Assembly (NCBI RefSeq): GCF_947503415.1
Contig: NZ_CANNDS010000001.1
Coordinates: forward strand, 744,001 to 808,000
Direction: 5' to 3'
Length of the DNA: 64,000 bases
Source: an uncultured Tateyamaria sp.
GTDB taxonomy: Bacteria > Pseudomonadota > Alphaproteobacteria > Rhodobacterales > Rhodobacteraceae
In this document: positions 5,375 to 43,140 of the stretch, one piece after another
How the letters are laid out: each line of letters opens with the position of its first letter
Numbering within the stretch: the stretch's first letter is position 1
Program-made: the position numbers and the translations under genes
The notes under the pieces: model-generated
Databases searched by the model: none
What the model saw: the letters and a program-made list of their open reading frames with translations, nothing else
Told to the model about the DNA's origin: nothing

Positions 5375-6666
5375 CGTTCATCGCGACGGGCGGCGCGTGC
5401 CTCGATGCTCAGCAAGTCAGGCAGCCGTTCCAGTGGATAATTCGGATGCAGCACCCAAACGCCGTCCTCGTCCTGATCCAGCGGGCGCAACGTCCCCCCC
5501 GGGAAAGCCCGTGTACGCAGCGCCAGAACCACGTCGGACAGCACCGCAGGATTGTCACGGAAATAGGCATGCCCGAACCCGCCGCGCACGTTTTCGACGC
5601 GGATGAAATGCACCAACGCTTCCTTGCGCAGGCGCTCCAGTTCCCCTGCGCGGAAGTCTTCGTTGTTGAGCGCCCCCAGCCGGGTGGATCGGGTCAGATA
5701 AGCCGACAGGCGCAAGGCCCCGTCATTCGGGTTGATATAGAGGTTGATCTGCTCGAAGGATTCCGAAAACCTTTCGGCCTGCAGCCTCTGGCGCACGATG
5801 TCCACGTCCAGATCGGGCGCGGCCATGATCAGCGTACCGGTCTTGAGCATCAGCTTGGGATGAACGCCGGCGCCCCGCGCCTCGATCATCAATTCGCGCA
5901 AGGCCGTCGTGGCCACATCCGTGCCGCGCGAATGGGCGATGATGTCGATACTGTCGACCTCGGGCATCTGCGCCAGCATGCGCAGGAATTCCTTGGTGTG
6001 GTGGACCGAGAACACGCCCGCATCCCGGTCGCGGAAATACCCAAGCGGCCCGATCCCGTTGCCTGCAGGCCATGTGAACGACACCGGTACGGATTCGCGC
6101 CCGGCAAAGTGCCACATGTTGGCCAGCGTCGTCAGGCTGTCTTCGAAGTCGTTGTTGAAGCCGTGGATATAGACAAGCAAGCTACGGTTGCCGGTCTGGG
6201 CAATCTCATCTGCGATGACTGCCTGAAAGCGCGACGCCTGTTCGTTGTAGATATCCAGCGTATCCTGCAAATGGCGGAGCCGCCCGTCGGAACGCGCGTA
6301 TGGCAGTGGCGTGGTTTCGAACCGCACGATCTCTTCGAAGTCGGGCACCCAGAGGGTCGACACCTGTTCATCGGAATCCGCGCGGGTCCGGTTCAGCAAC
6401 TCTTCCCACCCCAGATCGCGCCCGAACTTGACCGTCGCTGCCCCAAACGCCATCGAATCCGATCGGCCCGAGCCATAGCTTTCGTCATCGGGCGCCCGAT
6501 CCGTCATGTAGAAAATCTTGGGTTCCGCCGTGCGCCAGACCTCAGGCACCAGATTGTCGGGATAGTTCAGGCCGCCGCGATACAGGTTGGGCGGTGGTGC
6601 GAGGCCAATGCCGACCGCACATCCCCCCAGAATGAAACACGCTGCCAGCAGGATTAACCGCCGCAT
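5371..6666 (-). CDS. lipoprotein alpha/beta hydrolase (DUF900 type)
   Basis: 431 residues from ATG 6666, preferred to the ATG at 6681 because GGAAG lies 8 nt upstream of it and the signal sequence begins there. LILLAACFILGGCAV is a lipoprotein signal with lipobox GGC. The core has LLVYIHGFNNDFEDS (oxyanion region) and IDIIAHSRGTDVATTAL, with the nucleophile serine in a HSRG elbow. This is the DUF900/alpha-beta hydrolase layout. The substrate is unknown. It is first in an overlapping pair with the MOSC gene and is divergent from ettA. Confidence 0.82.
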   Translation of the reverse strand: MRRLILLAACFILGGCAVGIGLAPPPNLYRGGLNYPDNLVPEVWRTAEPKIFYMTDRAPDDESYGSGRSDSMAFGAATVKFGRDLGWEELLNRTRADSDEQVSTLWVPDFEEIVRFETTPLPYARSDGRLRHLQDTLDIYNEQASRFQAVIADEIAQTGNRSLLVYIHGFNNDFEDSLTTLANMWHFAGRESVPVSFTWPAGNGIGPLGYFRDRDAGVFSVHHTKEFLRMLAQMPEVDSIDIIAHSRGTDVATTALRELMIEARGAGVHPKLMLKTGTLIMAAPDLDVDIVRQRLQAERFSESFEQINLYINPNDGALRLSAYLTRSTRLGALNNEDFRAGELERLRKEALVHFIRVENVRGGFGHAYFRDNPAVLSDVVLALRTRAFPGGTLRPLDQDEDGVWVLHPNYPLERLPDLLSIEARAARRDER

Positions 6667-6811
6667 GTCAGACACTTCCATAGGTTTTGTCTGTCACCGC
6701 TAACACGACTCCGCCACCATCACCAAATCCCATTTCCGCGACGGGCGGCGCATTGCCCTTTGCCCTCTTGCCGGGTAGACGGACCTGCACAGTTTTTTCC
6801 GGGAGAATGCC

Positions 6812-8467
6812 ATGGCTGCCTATCAATATGTCTATCACATGTCGGGTGTGTCCAAGACCTATCCCGGCGGCAAGAAGTGCTTTGAGAATATCCACCTGAA
6901 CTTCCTGCCCGGCGTGAAGATCGGCGTCGTGGGTGTGAACGGCGCGGGCAAGTCCACGCTGATGAAGATCATGGCCGGTCTGGACACTGATTTTCAGGGT
7001 GAGGCATGGGCCGCAGAGGGCGCCAAGGTTGGGTATCTGCCGCAAGAGCCGCATCTGGACCCGGCCCTGACCGTGCGGGAGAACGTGATGCTGGGCGTGG
7101 CAGAGAAGAAGGCCATTCTGGACCGCTACAACGATCTGGCTATGAACTACTCGGACGAGACGGCGGACGAGATGGCGGCTTTGCAGGATCAGATTGATGC
7201 AGAGAACCTGTGGGATCTGGATTCGCAGATCGACGTTTCGATGGAGGCGCTGCGCTGCCCCCCCGATGATGCGGATGTAACGACGCTATCGGGCGGTGAA
7301 GCCCGCCGTGTGGCCCTGTGCAAGCTGCTGCTCGAAGCGCCTGAAATGCTGCTTCTGGACGAACCCACCAACCACCTCGACGCCGAGACCATCGCGTGGC
7401 TGCAACAGCACCTCATCGACTACAAGGGCACGATCCTGATCGTCACCCACGACCGCTATTTCCTGGATGACATCACCAGCTGGATTCTTGAACTGGACCG
7501 CGGCAAGGGTGTGCCGTGGGAAGGCAACTATTCCTCGTGGCTGGAACAGAAAGCCAAGCGCCTCGCGCAGGAAGCGCGCGAAGACAAGAGCCGCCAGAAA
7601 ACGCTGGAGCGGGAACTGGAGTGGATGCGGCAGGGCGCCAAGGCCCGTCAGGCCAAGTCCAAGGCCCGGATCAACGCCTATAACGAGATGGCCGACCAGT
7701 CCGAGCGCGAAAAGCTGACCCGCGCGCAGATTGTCATTCCGAACGGGCAGCGCCTTGGGTCCAAGGTGATCGATGTGCACGGGCTGTCCAAGCACATGGG
7801 GGACAAGCTGCTGGTCGAGGGGCTGGAGTTTTCCCTGCCCCCCGGCGCCATCGTGGGCGTCATTGGCCCCAACGGTGCCGGCAAATCCACGCTGTTCAAA
7901 ATGCTGACCGGGCAGGAAACGCCCGATGCCGGAACCATCGAACTGGGCGACACGGTGCAACTGTCCTATGTCGACCAGTCGCGCGACGATCTGGCCGCGA
8001 ATGACACGGTATGGGAAGCCATTTCCGGCGGGGCCGAGATCATCGAACTGGGTGACGCGCAGGTGAATAGCCGCGCCTATTGCTCGTCCTTCAACTTCAA
8101 GGGCGGCGACCAGCAAAAGAAGGTGTCGCTGCTGTCAGGCGGCGAACGCAACCGCGTTCACATGGCACGACTGCTGAAAGAGGGCGGCAACGTGCTGCTG
8201 CTCGACGAGCCGACCAACGATCTGGACGTAGAGACGCTGCGGGCGCTGGAAGATGCCTTGGTGGATTTCGCGGGTTGTGCGGTCGTGATCTCGCACGACC
8301 GGTTCTTCCTCGACCGGATCTGCACGCATATCCTCGCATTCGAGGGCGACGCGCATGTGGAGTGGTTCGAGGGGAATTTCGAGGACTACGAGGAAGACAA
8401 GAAGCGGCGGCTGGGGCCGGATGCCCTTGAACCCAAAAGGCTGAAACACAAGAAATTCGTCCGCTAA
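6812..8467 (+). CDS. ettA: energy-dependent translational throttle protein EttA (ABC-F ATPase)
   Basis: 551 residues with two ABC domains and no membrane segments. Domain 1 has GVNGAGKSTL, LSGGEARRVAL and LLLDEPTNHLD; domain 2 has GPNGAGKSTL, LSGGERNRVHM and LLLDEPTNDLD. The linker with LERELEWMRQGAKARQAKSKARI is the P-site tRNA interaction motif region of EttA, and the C-terminus LGPDALEPKRLKHKKF is typical. EttA binds the ribosomal E site and couples translation to the energy state. GGGAGA precedes ATG 6812. The last 14 codons form the left arm of a long inverted repeat that continues past the stop. Confidence 0.95.
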   Translation: MAAYQYVYHMSGVSKTYPGGKKCFENIHLNFLPGVKIGVVGVNGAGKSTLMKIMAGLDTDFQGEAWAAEGAKVGYLPQEPHLDPALTVRENVMLGVAEKKAILDRYNDLAMNYSDETADEMAALQDQIDAENLWDLDSQIDVSMEALRCPPDDADVTTLSGGEARRVALCKLLLEAPEMLLLDEPTNHLDAETIAWLQQHLIDYKGTILIVTHDRYFLDDITSWILELDRGKGVPWEGNYSSWLEQKAKRLAQEAREDKSRQKTLERELEWMRQGAKARQAKSKARINAYNEMADQSEREKLTRAQIVIPNGQRLGSKVIDVHGLSKHMGDKLLVEGLEFSLPPGAIVGVIGPNGAGKSTLFKMLTGQETPDAGTIELGDTVQLSYVDQSRDDLAANDTVWEAISGGAEIIELGDAQVNSRAYCSSFNFKGGDQQKKVSLLSGGERNRVHMARLLKEGGNVLLLDEPTNDLDVETLRALEDALVDFAGCAVVISHDRFFLDRICTHILAFEGDAHVEWFEGNFEDYEEDKKRRLGPDALEPKRLKHKKFVR

Positions 8468-36040: not shown

Positions 36041-37429
36041 ATGTCCGTGCGCGGTCTGATCTTCTGCCTATGCCTGTTGCCGGGGGCAGCGCTGGCCCAG
36101 TCGGGCAATGTGCTGACCAAGCAATACGATGATGGCGGCGTCTACGAAGGCACCTTCCGCGGCGGCCTCCAGCATGGCGAGGGCACGTACCGCCTGCCCA
36201 ATGGCTACGAATATTCCGGCGAGTGGGTGGACGGAGAGATCAAGGGAACCGGCACAGCCCGCTTTCCCAACGGGTCGGTCTACGAAGGCACGTTTTCCAA
36301 GGGCAAACCCGAAGGCTTCGGCAAGATCACCTTTGCCGATGGGGGCACCTATGAAGGCGAATGGCTGTCGGGGGCCATCGTGGGCGAAGGCGTGGCACTT
36401 TACGCCAATGGCGTACGCTACGAAGGCCAGTTTCGCAACGCCAAGCACCATGGCAAGGGGGTCATGCAATCCCCAAGCGGCTATGAATACAAGGGCGACT
36501 GGATCGACGGCATCAAACAGGGCATGGGGGTGATCACCTATCCCGATGGCTCTGTCTATGATGGCCAGATCGACGCGGGCAAACGGCAGGGCGAGGGCAA
36601 GCTGACCACACCTGACGGTCTGATCTATGTGGGACTGTGGGCGGACGGCCAGATCGACGGCAAAGGCACGCTCACCCAACCCAATGGCGACGTCTACGAA
36701 GGTGCGCTCCTGTCGGGCAAGCGCGAAGGCAAGGGCCGCGTGACCTATGGCAACGGCGACGTCTATGACGGGCAGTTCGCCGATGACCGCCGCCATGGTC
36801 AGGGCACCTTTATCGGCAATGACGGATACACCTATATCGGCCAATGGGCCGAAGGGCAGATCGAAGGCACGGGCCGGGTGACCTATCCTGACGGTTCGGT
36901 CTACGAGGGGCAGTTCGTCGATGACCTGCCCCAGGGGACGGGCAAGATCACCTATACGGATGGCTCCGTCTATGAAGGCGCATGGATCGCAGGCGTGATC
37001 GAAGGTCAGGGCAAGATCACCTACCCGAACGGCATCGTCTACGAAGGCGGGTTCAAGAACGCGCGCAACCATGGCAAAGGCGTGATGACCTATGCGGATG
37101 GATACCGGTATGAAGGCGCGTGGGCAGATGGCAAACGGGCAGGCACGGGCACGGCCACCTATCCGGATGGCACGGTCTACACCGGCGAATTTCTGGATGG
37201 TCAGCGCCACGGCACGGGCAAGATCGTCATGGCATCGGGCTTCACATATGAAGGTGAATGGCAGCAGGGCGAGATCAACGGGCAAGGGGTGGCCACCTAT
37301 GCCAGCGGCGACGTGTACGAAGGCACCTTCAAGAACGGCAAGCGTCAGGGCGTGGGCACCATGCGCTACGCCACCGGCGAGGAAGCCACAGGCGAGTGGG
37401 AAAGCGGTGCGCTCAACGAAGACAGCTAG
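36041..37429 (+). CDS. exported MORN-repeat protein with about 18 tandem repeats
   Basis: 462 residues. A Sec signal (LIFCLCLLPGAALAQS) is followed by about 18 copies of a 23-residue MORN unit of the form YEGxWxxGxxxGxGxxxxPDG, running from about residue 34 almost to the end with no other domain; the last unit is incomplete. Bacterial MORN proteins form long beta-solenoids that bind proteins or lipids, but the role here is unknown. The signal peptide places the solenoid in the periplasm or outside, which is uncommon for MORN proteins. The next gene starts inside its last codons. Confidence 0.92.
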   Translation: MSVRGLIFCLCLLPGAALAQSGNVLTKQYDDGGVYEGTFRGGLQHGEGTYRLPNGYEYSGEWVDGEIKGTGTARFPNGSVYEGTFSKGKPEGFGKITFADGGTYEGEWLSGAIVGEGVALYANGVRYEGQFRNAKHHGKGVMQSPSGYEYKGDWIDGIKQGMGVITYPDGSVYDGQIDAGKRQGEGKLTTPDGLIYVGLWADGQIDGKGTLTQPNGDVYEGALLSGKREGKGRVTYGNGDVYDGQFADDRRHGQGTFIGNDGYTYIGQWAEGQIEGTGRVTYPDGSVYEGQFVDDLPQGTGKITYTDGSVYEGAWIAGVIEGQGKITYPNGIVYEGGFKNARNHGKGVMTYADGYRYEGAWADGKRAGTGTATYPDGTVYTGEFLDGQRHGTGKIVMASGFTYEGEWQQGEINGQGVATYASGDVYEGTFKNGKRQGVGTMRYATGEEATGEWESGALNEDS

Positions 37430-38124: not shown

Positions 38125-40323
38125 TCAGGCCCCGGCGACCGGATCCACGGACCGGGCCTGCACCATCAAATCTATTCGCACCTGCTCGTCTGCCGCACCG
38201 GACTGGCGCGGCTGGCGCAAAACATAATGGCCCAAGCGATCCGGCCCTTTCGGATCGCCCGTGCCCGTCTGCACGTCCAGCTTGTCCAGATAGTCCGCCA
38301 CCGTCGTCATCGCGCTGGACGGCGTGTCCAGAAACATGTCGACCAGTGCCCGCGCCACCTGCGGGGCGGCTGATGATGTCCCGCTTTGCGCGATATAGGT
38401 GCCGCTGCGTGTCCCGGCCCCCACGATGCCCGGCTGCGTGACAGACCGCTCCGACACTGCGGAAAGCTGCACTTGCGCGCCCGCGGGCATCACCTCTGGC
38501 GACGCCCCGTCCTTGGCGCGCAAGGCACCTGCACAACTGTACCGCGCCGCCCGCAAGGTCATCTCGTCATAGCCTCCGACGCGCAGCACATGTGCGCCCG
38601 TGGCCATCCCGCTCATCGTGCCGAAACGGCGCACAAGGGCGGCCCCGGGACCCGAATCCATCTCCGCCAAACGCCCGTCATCGGCGTACAGGGCGTTGTG
38701 CGGATCGATGAAATAGCTTTGGCGCGCCCCGGACCCGCTGGCCGCGAAATCCTCATCGCGCTGTATCCAGAATTGCAGACCGCCCGCCTTGATCTGCTGG
38801 GTGGGATCGGTGGCGTATCCGGGCACGGGGTCGGCCATGCGCTTGGTCACACGCAGCGTCCAGCGCCCGGCAGGCGCCGGGGTCTGATCCTGCCCCACAT
38901 CCGTCGGGGCCAGTGCCACCACATGGCGCCAGCGCCCCCCACGGCACCGCTCGGTCGACAGCTGACCAATCGGTGCACCGCCCTTGGTGACGGGAGCATG
39001 GGCGACGGTCTGCGCCGCCGGAAAGGCGAACGCGTACTGATCCAGACGCGCGTGCGCAGGCGGCACCAGTTCCACACGCAGATCATCCGGGTTCACACCA
39101 TCGGGAAACCAGATCTCGAGAAAGCTCGACGTGCGATCATCGGGGGGCAAAAACCAATCCAGAGCCACAGGGCCGGTGGCCTGCGCAAAATGCGGCTCTG
39201 TCATCACCGCGTGAATGCTCTGCATGAACATGTTGCCCGAGGGCAGCACCACGGCCGTGGGGTGGTGGGCACGGCGGGCCGCGATCATCTCGTCAAAGGC
39301 GGCCTCGACCAGCCCGTTGCCATCATGCGGCCCCGATGAATGACCATAGCTGAGGTTGATCACCAGCGGCACACGCGCGCCGGGGGCCGCATAAGCCGCC
39401 GCAATGCGCTCGGCCCGATCAAAGATGTAATGCATGGCCGACAGAACAAACATGTCCTTGCCAAAGCCCGAGGTATCGGCGCTCGCCATGGCGGGCAAAT
39501 CGACGGCAATGATTTGTACGCGGTCCTGCCTGGGGTCGCCATGTCCGGGGGTCTGCCCCGCCAGACTGTCCAGCACATGCGCCCCGTGCGAAAACATCCG
39601 GTCCAGCGGAAACCGCACCGTCGGATCGCCCCCACCGGCCAGACCGGCAGCCTGATACACGGCGCCCTCATCGCCACCGTGACGGCGGTACAATGCGTCA
39701 ATGGCGGCCTTGTCATATTCCCGACCAAACAGCATCGGCTGACCCGCCTTGGTGGCGGACTGGGACCAGCAATACTCAATGCGCGTGCCACGCCCGGATG
39801 CCGCGATAAAGTTGCGATGGGCAAAGGGAATGCCGTCATCCACGATGGCGACAATAACAATAGCGTCCTGCTGCGGTGCGGGGTCAGGTGCGGCGCTGTC
39901 GCTCCAATCTGCGCACAGGGTCGGCGCGCGCACGGGATAGTTCACATGGGCAACGACCTCTGAACCCGCCGCCTGCCCCGCCACGGTTGGCACCGGGGTC
40001 TCGTTCACAGCATCGGCAAACAGCTTCAAACCTTGCGCAGGCGTGTCGCTTGGCGCGTCATCACGCTCGCAAAACAAGGCCGGGACAAAGCGCGACCTGA
40101 AGCCATTGGCAGACCACAACACCGGGGTCCGAAACGTGCCCTGCCCGGTGGACCAATGCCCCGGCACATCGCCAATCGCGAACGGGTCATCCGCCTCGAA
40201 GACACAGGACAACACGTCAGACGCACGGTCGAGCCCCGGATGGGCATAGGCCTGACCCAACCCATGGACCCAATTCTCATACGGGCCTTGCGCACACCGC
40301 GCATAGGGCACCTGCACACTCAT
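38125..40323 (-). CDS. subtilisin-like serine protease (S8), no signal peptide
   Basis: 732 residues. The catalytic triad is visible as VIVAIVDDGIPFAHRNF (Asp near 162), MFSHGAHVLDSLAG (His near 246) and AQSGTSSAAPQVARAL (Ser near 650). The long span between His and Ser holds an inserted region of about 250 residues, including VVLPSGNMFMQ (oxyanion Asn region). There is no signal peptide, so it is cytosolic or exported by another route. Its ATG overlaps the stop of the upstream PAP2/haloperoxidase-like gene (40320-40323), so the two are made together. The target is unknown. Confidence 0.87.
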   Translation of the reverse strand: MSVQVPYARCAQGPYENWVHGLGQAYAHPGLDRASDVLSCVFEADDPFAIGDVPGHWSTGQGTFRTPVLWSANGFRSRFVPALFCERDDAPSDTPAQGLKLFADAVNETPVPTVAGQAAGSEVVAHVNYPVRAPTLCADWSDSAAPDPAPQQDAIVIVAIVDDGIPFAHRNFIAASGRGTRIEYCWSQSATKAGQPMLFGREYDKAAIDALYRRHGGDEGAVYQAAGLAGGGDPTVRFPLDRMFSHGAHVLDSLAGQTPGHGDPRQDRVQIIAVDLPAMASADTSGFGKDMFVLSAMHYIFDRAERIAAAYAAPGARVPLVINLSYGHSSGPHDGNGLVEAAFDEMIAARRAHHPTAVVLPSGNMFMQSIHAVMTEPHFAQATGPVALDWFLPPDDRTSSFLEIWFPDGVNPDDLRVELVPPAHARLDQYAFAFPAAQTVAHAPVTKGGAPIGQLSTERCRGGRWRHVVALAPTDVGQDQTPAPAGRWTLRVTKRMADPVPGYATDPTQQIKAGGLQFWIQRDEDFAASGSGARQSYFIDPHNALYADDGRLAEMDSGPGAALVRRFGTMSGMATGAHVLRVGGYDEMTLRAARYSCAGALRAKDGASPEVMPAGAQVQLSAVSERSVTQPGIVGAGTRSGTYIAQSGTSSAAPQVARALVDMFLDTPSSAMTTVADYLDKLDVQTGTGDPKGPDRLGHYVLRQPRQSGAADEQVRIDLMVQARSVDPVAGA

Positions 40324-41462
40324 GCCGACGCAAGCAGATGCTTGATGTCATCCTGCGCGCGGCTCCACAGCCACGCAAACTTGCTGTCGTCAGAAGGCAT
40401 ACCGACGGTCTCGCGCTGCATCGTGACCCCGGGAAGCGGTGTTGCAGACGCAGGCTCGAACAGGGCCATGGCGTCGCGCAGGATGAAATCGGCGCTCCGG
40501 GCCTCCGCGTCATTGGGATCAAAGGAGAAGCAGGTCAACTCCGCCTTCGCGTTCTGGCCAAGGGCCGCAATGATCCGACCCACATTGATGCCGATCATGA
40601 ACCCGGCGGCACTGTCGATAGGATAATGCACGCCCGCCACGGTGCGGTTGACGGCAACCCGGTGGCCCGTGGCCCGGATCATGGCACGCCGCTCGGACAG
40701 ATGGCTGACGCCCTGCCCCGCGGCATCCAGCAAGGCCACCAGAACGGTCGACACCGCAGCGGCCTGCGTGGCGTGGCCGCTGGGCATGCTGCCATGGGAC
40801 GGCGTCGGAACAAGCGGCACCAGACGGCTGTCCAGTTCATCGGGACGACGACAGGCAAGCGCGTGCTTGGCAGGCATGGAGGCCATCCCGGCCAGATGCT
40901 GAACCAGCAACATCAATTCGATCAGATGGGTCGACCGGCTGGCAGGCACCCCCAGCACCGGGGCAAAGAACTGCGTGATGCCCCCGGTCTGGGTGATAAT
41001 CTCGGACGCACGATCGCCGCGCTGATCCATGTAATAGCGCACCAGATTGACCTGAGTGGACAAGGTCGTGGCCGTCGCAGGCACAAAGCGCGCAAAGTCC
41101 GTACCCGCCCACGACAATGCCACGCACCCCGCATCGGGATCAGACGTGTAGACCGCCTTGAAGGCCTCAAGGAACTCCATCGTCAACAGTGTCGCGCGTA
41201 CATCCTGACCGTAACGCCCCATGTGGGTGGTCGCATTCGGATCAAGCGTCCCCCCGGCCCCGAGAGGCGGATAATCATCGGTGCCCGCCAGATGAACCAA
41301 AGCCATTGCACTGGCCTGCACCGCGCCTCCGGCGGCATACGCATCACCGTGCCCGGCATGTCCTGCATGACCGGCATGACCGGCATGGCCCGCGTGCCCC
41401 GCGTGTCCTGCATGGCCAGCGTGGCCCGCATGACCGGCGTGAAATGGCCCGAATAATGACAT
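40320..41462 (-). CDS. vanadium-haloperoxidase / PAP2-like enzyme with His-Ala-Gly repeat N-terminus
   Basis: 380 residues from ATG 41462 (AGGGGA 7 nt upstream). Residues 8-37 are ten His-Ala-Gly units in a row. The catalytic core keeps the vanadate/phosphate pocket: KHALACRRP (K-x6-RP), PSHGSMPSGHATQAA (PSGH), and NRTVAGVHYPIDSAAG (R-x5-H-x3-D). This pocket is shared by vanadium haloperoxidases and PAP2 acid phosphatases; with no membrane spans the soluble haloperoxidase-like class is favoured. No signal peptide. The His-rich tail could bind metal ions. It is the middle gene of a regulator-enzyme-protease unit. Confidence 0.78.
   Translation of the reverse strand: MSLFGPFHAGHAGHAGHAGHAGHAGHAGHAGHAGHAGHGDAYAAGGAVQASAMALVHLAGTDDYPPLGAGGTLDPNATTHMGRYGQDVRATLLTMEFLEAFKAVYTSDPDAGCVALSWAGTDFARFVPATATTLSTQVNLVRYYMDQRGDRASEIITQTGGITQFFAPVLGVPASRSTHLIELMLLVQHLAGMASMPAKHALACRRPDELDSRLVPLVPTPSHGSMPSGHATQAAAVSTVLVALLDAAGQGVSHLSERRAMIRATGHRVAVNRTVAGVHYPIDSAAGFMIGINVGRIIAALGQNAKAELTCFSFDPNDAEARSADFILRDAMALFEPASATPLPGVTMQRETVGMPSDDSKFAWLWSRAQDDIKHLLASA
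41352..41441 (-). repeat. ten 9-nt coding repeats encoding His-Ala-Gly
   Basis: Ten consecutive 9-nt units of the form CAY GCN GGN read on the minus strand. The protein repeat is exact while the codons vary at third positions (CAC/CAT, GCC/GCG/GCA/GCT, GGT/GGC/GGA/GGG). This indicates that selection maintains the peptide rather than recent DNA slippage. Confidence 0.95.
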
Positions 41463-41499
41463 TACTAAATCCCCTGAATTATTCGCAAAAAATCTTGCC

Positions 41500-43140
41500 T
41501 TAAAAACCTGCCGCTTGCAGCGCAGTGACCATGCGACGGCCAACGTCGTAATCCGCGGCCGGGTGCTTCTGGCGGTATTCCTCCAAATCGAAATACGGCA
41601 ATTGACGGCGCAGGCGCTGGCCCGTCTGCATCATCTCTTCATGCTGATCCAAGTGATAATGGGCACACAGCTTGGTGCGCAGGGTCGACACGTGACGCGC
41701 GTTCAATTCAAGCGACAGGTCAGCCAATTCGACCGCCTGTTCATACTCTTCCGCAGACACGTGAGCAAAAGATGCAAAGGAATGAAACAGATATCCCAAC
41801 GGGTCAATCGGCGACAGGCGATGCGCCTTTTCCACATATTCGACCGCCGTCGCGGAATTGTCGCGGAAGGCATGGGTCACACCGCTGAACAGCCACGACA
41901 TCGCGTCGTTGGGGTTGACCTCCAAAGCCTTTGAGAACCGTTTTTCGGCAACGCCCTGACTGTTGTTCAGCGCCGAATGGACGACCCCGTCCACAGCAAG
42001 GCACAACGAATTGTCCGGGTCCAGATCCAACGCCCGCTGCGTGAATTCAGAGGCCAGCAGCGCATCCGATTTGGCATCCGAACTCCACCCGTTCCAGATC
42101 GACATGATGTACCAGTCGCCCAACCACGCCAGTGGTTCGGCAGCATGGGGCGCGCGGGCGACGGATTCCTCGATCAATTGGCGGGCCTTGGCAAAGCTTG
42201 CCAGTTTCAGCTCGTGCATCATGCCGACCCCGGCCAGCAGCAGGCGGTGATCCTCCAGATCAGACAGGTGGCGGCCCCGGGCATAGCGCACGGTGTCAGA
42301 GGCAATCATGCGCCCGACGGCGGTTGTCAGCTCTGCGATGGCCTCGCTTTTGGATGACAGGAAATCGGCGATAGGCGCGGTAAAGGATCTGGTCCACAGG
42401 ATACGTCCCGTCGACGTGTCGATGAAATCGGCGTCCAGCGTGGCATTCAGATTCTGCGTGCGCAGCGATCCGTTCAGGCAGTAATGGGCCCCAAGGGTGT
42501 TCTGGATGGTCTGAGTATCGAGGTTCTGCACGCTCAACTGTCGCGCCGACATATGCGAGATCACCGACATCAGGCTGGATTTCGACAGCGACCGGCACAC
42601 TTCCTCGGCCACGAAATCCCCCATGACGCTCATGCTTTGGTCGCTCGAGATCAGCCGGAACGGCACAACGGCCACGGTTGGCAGAATGGACGGCGGTGGG
42701 GGTTGGTGGGCGGTACTGAACAGCCCGTAAATCTGGCTGGGGTTTTGCCGGATGTTGTTCAGCCACTCCTCGAACCCATGTTCACGGATGTCCAGACCTT
42801 CCAGGAACGTGGCGCCCCCCGGACGGCCCAGAAACCGCACGTTCTGCATGGTCAGCGTCAATTCGGAATGGGTTGCCGTCAGGAAGTCCTCGAAATCCTC
42901 GCCCAGCAGCGCCTTGATGTCAGAGACCGCCCGCCGCAGGCTCTGCCGCCCACTGTCGAACGTGGATTGGCCCCACAACGTGTCCTGCAGGAAGCTGCGG
43001 GTGCGACGCCCAAAGGGCGCAGTGGCAAGCAAGGCGAACAGGGCCTTGTGCTTGGTTCCGGTAATCTCATAGCCGTTCTGGCCCGCCTTGCGCACAACGC
43101 ACGGACCGAACAGATTGATCTCAAGCACTTTGCCAGCCAC
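41500..43140 (-). CDS. winged-helix (SARP/CadC-like) regulator with TolB-like and TPR regions
   Basis: 546 residues from GTG 43140, with GGGGGAG about 5 nt upstream; a TTG at 43164 is the longer option. The N-terminal ~100 residues (INLFGPCVVRKAG...HKALFALLATAP, SFLQDTLWG, SGRQSLRRAVSDIKALLG) are an OmpR/SARP-type DNA-binding domain. PTVAVVPFRLIS through ATLDADFIDTSTGRILWTRSF resembles the TolB-like nucleotide-cyclase-associated domain. The rest is TPR-like (WLGDWYIMS, ALDLDPDNSLCLAVDGVVH, ALEVNPNDAMSWLFSGV, AHRLSPIDPLGYLFHSF). It lies 37 nt upstream of the PAP2-like gene and is the likely regulator of the unit. Confidence 0.8.
   Translation of the reverse strand: MAGKVLEINLFGPCVVRKAGQNGYEITGTKHKALFALLATAPFGRRTRSFLQDTLWGQSTFDSGRQSLRRAVSDIKALLGEDFEDFLTATHSELTLTMQNVRFLGRPGGATFLEGLDIREHGFEEWLNNIRQNPSQIYGLFSTAHQPPPPSILPTVAVVPFRLISSDQSMSVMGDFVAEEVCRSLSKSSLMSVISHMSARQLSVQNLDTQTIQNTLGAHYCLNGSLRTQNLNATLDADFIDTSTGRILWTRSFTAPIADFLSSKSEAIAELTTAVGRMIASDTVRYARGRHLSDLEDHRLLLAGVGMMHELKLASFAKARQLIEESVARAPHAAEPLAWLGDWYIMSIWNGWSSDAKSDALLASEFTQRALDLDPDNSLCLAVDGVVHSALNNSQGVAEKRFSKALEVNPNDAMSWLFSGVTHAFRDNSATAVEYVEKAHRLSPIDPLGYLFHSFASFAHVSAEEYEQAVELADLSLELNARHVSTLRTKLCAHYHLDQHEEMMQTGQRLRRQLPYFDLEEYRQKHPAADYDVGRRMVTALQAAGF

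Follow-up and report, generated by a model that had tools for sequence, protein, structure and literature searches.

The locus studied here lies in a 64,000-nucleotide stretch of contig NZ_CANNDS010000001.1 from an uncultured Tateyamaria sp. (positions 744,001 to 808,000 of the contig), called the window below. Three genes follow one another on its minus strand. The first (41500–43140) encodes a regulator (REG) that consists of a winged helix, a TolB/FlgO-like middle part and a C-terminal half built of tetratricopeptide repeats (TPRs). Its most likely start is an apparent GTG codon at 43140, preceded by GGGGGAG; residue numbers of REG count from the codon at 43134, and 2 is to be added for the protein that starts with the GTG. 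The second gene (40320–41462, ATG start) encodes a repeat-tailed enzyme of the PAP2 superfamily with 380 amino acids (PAP), and the third (38125–40323) a Csp-like subtilase of family S8 with 732 amino acids (S8). The intergenic gap between REG and PAP measures 37 nt (41463–41499), and the stop of PAP overlaps the start of S8 in an ATGA (40320–40323). An original prediction made from the letters of the window had described this arrangement correctly. No signal peptide was apparent by eye in the three window proteins.

The N-terminus of PAP carries the tripeptide His-Ala-Gly (HAG) ten times in tandem (41352–41441, minus strand), with eight distinct 9-mers among the ten. The catalytic core, from K199 to D283 (40614–40868, minus strand), contains the motifs K199-x6-R206-P207, P227-S228-G229-H230 and R273-x5-H279-x3-D283. 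In a 58-row alignment, K199, R206, H230, R273, H279 and D283 were each kept in all rows, S228 was kept in 57, and G229 in 50, with Ala in the other 8. The complete pocket and the ten-fold HAG had both been pointed out in the original prediction, as had an intact protease triad. The latter was also found: D162, H246 and S650 of S8, together with the oxyanion residue N364, were each present in 61 of 61 alignment rows. Because both active sites are conserved, PAP and S8 are both probably active.

The family labels proposed at the outset fared unevenly. PF01569 matched the window PAP with 46.1 bits, above its cut-off of 27.2, and this label stands. The matches of the other two proteins were weaker than implied. 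PF00082 gave 16.7 bits on S8, below the gathering cut-off of 21.8, although the fold, the triad and the oxyanion Asn are nonetheless present. The top NCBIfam match of REG was the HilA family, with 44.3 bits, far under the cut-off of 589. Trans_reg_C (PF00486) had no match in the window REG itself, and was matched in the regulators of two relatives (L096, 1e-9; L109, 4.4e-12). The nearest solved relatives of S8 are the Csp germination proteases (4i0w, Foldseek E 3.0e-22, TM-score 0.75 by target length), and a profile match to 9sj6 was obtained at 1.3e-24. The NCBIfam cut-offs for CspBA and CspC were not reached (36.1 versus 1250 bits and 22.7 versus 675, respectively). By fold and profile, S8 is a Csp-type subtilase. 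For PAP, class A acid phosphatases outranked haloperoxidases in sequence and fold searches, and haloperoxidase as its settled function is unsupported.

The linkage of the three genes was followed across genomes. A protease search of 248 genomes of the family gave relatives in 55 of them, at 67 places, and 61 neighbourhoods, including the window, were read. PAP, REG and S8 occurred together in 56 of the 61, and a recount with clean models was identical. The five incomplete neighbourhoods comprise a joint REG–S8 open reading frame (ORF; L040), a contig end (L051) and three proteases without partners (L054, L075 and L076). In an independent recruitment by the enzyme alone (profile A1), for which the best 80 named loci of 378 confirmed ones were taken, the trio was complete in 79 of 80, and the exception (L158) begins at a contig end. 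The gaps between neighbouring members had a median of 25 nt, and 98.9% of 272 were shorter than 300 nt, where the two locus sets share some genomes and ORFs begin at the first possible start. Strand and order differ between loci: the protease-recruited set shows three main arrangements (21, 18 and 11 loci), and the named set contains 70 co-directional and 9 divergent cassettes. Therefore, adjacency itself is what is conserved in the trio. The original prediction had taken the genes for a fixed trio, linked by accident if the homologues were almost never adjacent elsewhere. That proviso clearly fails, and accidental linkage is ruled out by the two sets of complete neighbourhoods.

The repeat tail proved to be a general feature of the enzyme. 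A perfect tandem repeat of a 2–6-residue peptide was present in 134 of 139 distinct PAP homologues, nearly always at the N-terminus. Among the five homologues without a counted run, L051 and L158 lie at contig ends, L065 is degenerate, L087 is interrupted, and L066 has none. The period of the unit is 3 in 118 homologues, 4 in 10, 2 in 4, and 5 and 6 in one each; the copy number ranges from 3.3 to 20.5, with a median of 9. Once rotations are collapsed, 75 distinct units result. Cys and Pro occur in no unit, and His occurs in 9. HAG is just one of the 75, so a His-rich metal-binding tail was rejected, and the His-richness named in the original prediction is incidental. The longest-run statistic was at least 9 within the first 170 residues in 133 of 139 homologues, and as a chance control on the C-terminal 200 residues it never exceeded 3 in the 139. 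Residues 1–44 of the window PAP have predicted local distance difference test (pLDDT) values below 50, and the tail is thus predicted to be disordered.

The window's genome contains a second complete REG-PAP-S8 cassette (C5, L096:9745–14862), co-directional as in the window, with the unit SAY in nine copies. HAG or SAY repeats as a genome-wide feature were rejected, as three consecutive units occur only in the own enzyme gene. The differing units of genomes with two cassettes (HAG and SAY here) were dropped as evidence, since random pairs rarely share a unit anyway. A matching repeat in REG or S8 was also rejected: among 148 ORFs of each, a run above 5 occurred in one S8 (L118, 9) and one REG (L063, 10), plus one masked stretch.

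Adjacent copies of the unit used the same codon in 922 of 3320 cases, against 1222 ± 23 expected from 2000 within-array shuffles (minimum 1137). Neighbouring units were identical in DNA in 49 of 1083 cases, as compared with 81 ± 7 in the shuffles. Because adjacent copies differ in their codons beyond shuffling, it is the peptide, and not the DNA, that is conserved. Judged from the codons, the tail is held exact at the peptide level and identity at the DNA level is avoided, presumably since identical DNA would destabilise the array. On/off phase variation by the tail was rejected, because the units are 2–6 whole codons, gain or loss keeps the frame, and the codons are scrambled beyond shuffling. 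Some arrays contain repeated multi-unit blocks (L074, L058 and L113), and such block repetition is a plausible route of array growth. In nine Phaeobacter cassettes, the unit NSF was fixed and present in 5, 6 or 7 copies, with PAP identities of 97–99.5% in the pairs computed. Over larger distances the unit changes: it was shared by 74% of cassette pairs at 70–80% PAP identity and by 5% at 50–60%.

The unit was then treated as a character, and columns of PAP, S8 and REG that track it were sought in 112 trios with period-3 units, with overall similarity removed. The top 40 listed columns comprised 28 of REG, 8 of S8 and 4 of PAP. Eighteen of the 28 lie in the TPR region (residues 325–520; 41575–42162, minus strand), and several are spaced by 34–35 residues (384/419/453 and 388/422/456), which is the spacing of equivalent positions of successive TPRs. 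Positions 2, 5, 9, 12 and 13 of helix A were taken to be the ligand-facing ones. As pseudo-labels with the same phylogeny we used 846 PAP and S8 columns, of which 6 matched the enrichment of the unit at ligand-facing TPR positions and 5 matched the groove peak of the first unit residue. This peak is REG residue 384 (Val in the window; 41983–41985, minus strand), at position 9 of a helix A; of all columns, it follows the first residue of the unit most closely. The original prediction had overlooked that it is the regulator whose sequence follows the repeat.

Aromatic residues or His (Phe, His, Tyr or Trp) occupied position 384 in 50 of 59 trios with Gly as the first unit residue and in 11 of 53 with other residues (112 trios, no phylogenetic correction). 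Gly in the unit went together with Phe or His, and Ser, Asn or Ala mostly with Gln, Asn, Val, Leu or Met. On a PAP+S8 tree of 81 co-directional trios, 14 independent pairs contrasting in the first unit residue yielded 11 in agreement, 0 against and 3 ties at residue 384. Examples are GGL/Phe versus SGL/Asn (84% PAP identity) and GGA/Phe versus AGA/Leu (63%). Across the 1391 columns of the three proteins, 15301 column-by-class tests were made; residue 384 came first, and the next column reached a net score of 7. With 13 loci added (94 tips), 100 random choices of 15 pairs gave 11–14 in agreement and 0 against, and the best other column reached net 7–10. As read from these residues, the pairing is steric in sense: a unit Gly faces a ring in the groove, and a unit residue with a side chain is met by a groove that leaves space for it.

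Other groove positions showed related patterns. Residue 388 (Ala; 41971–41973, minus strand), position 13 of the TPR that holds residue 384, is usually Asn or His in relatives and varies with the unit. At residue 456 (Phe; 41767–41769, minus strand), position 12 of helix A in a later TPR, relatives mostly have Thr, Ser or Gly, depending on which unit residue is largest. In the 81 trios, Tyr units went with Gly at this residue (14 of 18), Phe units with Ser (12 of 15), and units with A, I, L, V, M, S or T as the largest residue with Thr (33 of 43). It is a putative second, weaker pocket. A prediction fixed beforehand was applied to new loci; rule 1 held in 10 of 13 (8 of 10 Gly units and 2 of 3 others) and rule 2 in 10 of 12, which is supportive.

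The plan of the cassette also holds for ten tailed PAP2 enzymes of greater distance, each with a protease gene next to it. Beside the enzyme at L200–L203 and L279 (units TGN, TSN and AGN) lie genes for a glutamic peptidase (peptidase A4) and for a TPR regulator that bears a class III nucleotide cyclase domain. L280 (unit GGNWF) combines a cyclase–TPR regulator with an L199-like subtilase (6251–7393, plus strand; E 6e-25). Guanylate_cyc was matched in the regulators of all these six loci. At L199 (unit DAR) and at L281 and L282 (unit NK), a TPR protein without a recognised N-terminal domain stands beside a subtilase that passes PF00082. L283 (unit QTQ) has a winged-helix regulator with a weak Trans_reg_C match and an S8-like protein, which was matched by our own S8 profile (4e-42) and by no Pfam entry. 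Since these cassettes keep the plan while swapping parts, the constant core is a TPR protein, a repeat-tailed PAP2 enzyme and some protease.

Several observations weigh against the explanation proposed below. Ten of the 28 REG columns in the top 40 fall outside the TPR region. With the whole unit as the label, the pseudo-label test was less exceptional by rank-test p (17/846), by groove peak (48/846) and by peak anywhere in REG (203/846). The second unit residue was intermediate at groove positions (29 of 846 pseudo-labels did as well), the third was unenriched there (610/846), and so was a GG/non-GG label (679/846); as labels, the second and third residues gave no unique column. The F/Y/W/H class at residue 384 was chosen after seeing the data. 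With free residue grouping, residue 384 still tops the list with 11, but is followed closely by three columns with 10 and nine with 9. Residue 456, the best groove column for the third unit residue, scored 6 to 0 in independent pairs but was tied with three PAP or S8 columns. The independent-pair tests were confined to co-directional trios whose units have period 3, the divergent cassettes being too divergent for safe alignment. The rule that sets the unit phase ("largest residue last") is arbitrary and misplaces some units, such as SGA. The out-of-sample test was weakly powered, as 10 of its 13 units begin with Gly, and adds little over the base rate. In the distant enzymes L281:5068–6090 and L282:4849–5799, the NK repeat is internal in PAP. 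Finally, no S8 column stands out as tracking the unit, with net 7 for the best one versus 11 for residue 384, and because of this the role assigned to the protease rests on linkage. Its action on or with the tailed enzyme, as proposed in the original prediction, is plausible.

We propose that the trio forms a cytosolic three-part recognition and control module, and assign this module as a whole a probability of about 0.58. The PAP2-type enzyme would bear a flexible tail in which one short peptide word is repeated about 5–20 times. The concave TPR groove of REG would bind this tail, with side-chain pockets fitting the word, so that each cassette would own its code. Occupancy by the tail would set the output of REG: in the main type, transcription via the winged helix, and in cassettes with a cyclase, probably the synthesis of a cyclic nucleotide. 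Control over the complex would fall to the partner protease; on a trigger it would most likely cleave the tail or the docked partner, upon which the enzyme and REG would separate and the output would switch. Binding of the tail by the TPRs is likely, each step beyond it less so, and the one line of evidence that points to such docking is the covariation. Physical binding, the direction of control and proteolysis as the switch are all what we infer. The variable word and the changing groove suggest an undescribed private recognition code. For a broader formulation the odds appear even: private molecular address codes, in which the TPR superhelix would read the tandem word of the enzyme through co-evolving pockets, with dozens of tag–receptor pairs and with interchangeable proteases (subtilase or glutamic peptidase) and output domains (DNA-binding or nucleotide cyclase).

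The nearest known parallels are the RRNPP systems (Rap, Rgg, NprR, PlcR and PrgX), in which the groove of a TPR regulator is fitted to a short peptide encoded alongside. Their receptors carry an N-terminal helix-turn-helix of Xre/Cro type or a Rap-type bundle, and the precursor peptide is small, secreted and re-imported. The trio likewise has a TPR regulator, in which one groove position covaries with the peptide unit and may mark a site that binds the peptide. In contrast, the peptide here is not a small secreted precursor, as far as export can be judged by eye, but a perfect tandem tail fused to a conserved enzyme, and a protease gene is built in. The output domain also differs (winged helix or nucleotide cyclase), and the trio was found in Proteobacteria. 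Unlike in RRNPP receptors, an HTH_3-type domain had no match in the regulators scanned here. The main-type REG shares its domain plan with HilA/CadC-type winged helix–TolB–TPR and SARP-like regulators.

S8 shares its fold and sequence with the clostridial germination subtilases CspB, CspA and CspC, but there is no spore context here, and its partners are a TPR regulator and a tailed PAP2 enzyme. PAP has the helical fold and the K-x6-RP/PSGH/R-x5-H-x3-D pocket of class A acid phosphatases and vanadium haloperoxidases, from which the repeat tail sets it apart; it is placed at the level of the superfamily. According to PMC10115654, designed repeat proteins bind tripeptide repeats by superhelical matching, and natural TPRs bind varied peptides with register deviations. 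The same paper credits the reading of a repeated peptide by a repeat protein in nature to armadillo proteins, and otherwise to design. Like the designed tripeptide binders, and like armadillo repeats with Lys/Arg-rich peptides, the trio would set a repeat protein against a repeated peptide, and most of its units are also tripeptides. The binders described there are designed proteins; in the trio, a register of one unit per TPR would be hypothetical.

In the literature searched, a limited collection leaving out most subscription papers and all preprints, neither the trio nor a regulator of the winged helix–TolB–TPR type partnered with a repeat-tailed enzyme and a protease was described. By computation, the trio appears categorically new in plan, though it is made of known domain families.

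The repeat might instead serve mainly as a multi-site substrate of the partner protease, with the tail being trimmed, the unit following protease specificity and the covariation of REG being indirect. Csp proteases activate a pro-enzyme in spores by cleavage, and the kinship of S8 to them counts for this explanation, as does the protease gene next to each of the ten distant cassettes. We nevertheless consider it unlikely, given the lower score of the best S8 column relative to residue 384 and the pairing of the same kind of tail with an unrelated glutamic peptidase in the distant types. A conflict or defence module, in which the tailed enzyme and the TPR protein act as the sensor and the protease as an effector silent until a trigger breaks the pairing, would fit the patchy distribution (protease relatives in 55 of 248 family genomes), the carriage on plasmids (34 plasmid records, 21 from Phaeobacter) and the interchangeable proteases. 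However, PADLOC gave no significant match on the trio, its single match being a sub-significant one of IetS to the protease (E 0.11). Phage carriage of the enzyme was rejected, as no phage record matches PAP. A conflict or defence module seems quite unlikely; a stress or interbacterial role, as suggested in the original prediction, is conceivable.

Under peptide signalling of the RRNPP type, short pieces would be cut from the tail and act on the TPR regulator, perhaps from cell to cell. The ingredients are at hand, namely a TPR regulator, a subtilase, a short peptide in many copies and groove residues specific to the unit. But the peptide is joined to an enzyme whose catalytic residues are conserved, no export signal was seen by eye, units of 2–4 residues are very short, and the scanned regulators bear a winged helix or a cyclase instead of the RRNPP helix-turn-helix. 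This makes the explanation improbable. A neutral or purely structural low-complexity leader, growing by slippage or recombination in a trio linked for other reasons, could account for the repeated multi-unit blocks and for the varying copy number within Phaeobacter. It is very hard to reconcile with the perfect peptide identity despite scrambled codons, with the near-universal tail among homologues and with the 11–14 to 0 match with one REG groove position, and it is the explanation to which we give least credence.

If the proposed module is real, bacteria hold ready-made pairs of tag and receptor, a repeated peptide being read by a repeat protein, and natural peptide tags with a readable groove code would be on offer. 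For Alpha- and Betaproteobacteria, it would also mean a new logic of signalling within the cell, and winged helix–TolB–TPR and cyclase–TPR regulators would gain a candidate ligand.

By record title, the trio occurs in Rhodobacterales, Microvirga, Bradyrhizobium, Rhizobium, Kiloniella, Thalassobaculum, Paraburkholderia, other Burkholderiales and a Chromatiales symbiont. Two further records are titled Oceanobacillus sp. (L147) and Anaerolineae metagenome-assembled genome (MAG) (L151); their cassettes look proteobacterial, and the records are probably mislabelled or misbinned. PAP matches were found in 17 of 289 genomes of the class at E 1e-10, and a broader profile (E 1e-15) matched 29 of 398 genomes of the phylum. 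Among the weakest loci of the class-genome search, L186–L190, L192, L193 and L198 have neither repeat nor partner, and L191 lacks a repeat but lies next to a REG-like gene.

On nine Phaeobacter plasmids, the trio is present and annotated as a winged helix-turn-helix protein, a phosphatase PAP2 and an S8 peptidase. On these plasmids (L255–L263), three to four common hypothetical genes lie on the opposite strand directly downstream of the protease. In plasmid pW43B of Parasedimentitalea marina (L264), a frameshift disrupts the PAP gene, which is annotated as a hypothetical protein and retains an intact NSF tail; the cassette is otherwise similar. The joint ORF of L040 (6598–8541) fuses the REG N-terminus to protease sequence in an incomplete, fragmented genome, with no PAP gene, and is due to a deletion or an assembly error. 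L090, on a contig shared with L097 (Rhodobacteraceae MAG-99), contains two complete cassettes within 11 kb, with convergent protease genes and the units GS and SAY. In the window itself, a MORN protein of 462 amino acids (36041–37429) has 18 MORN stretches and, by eye, an apparent signal peptide.

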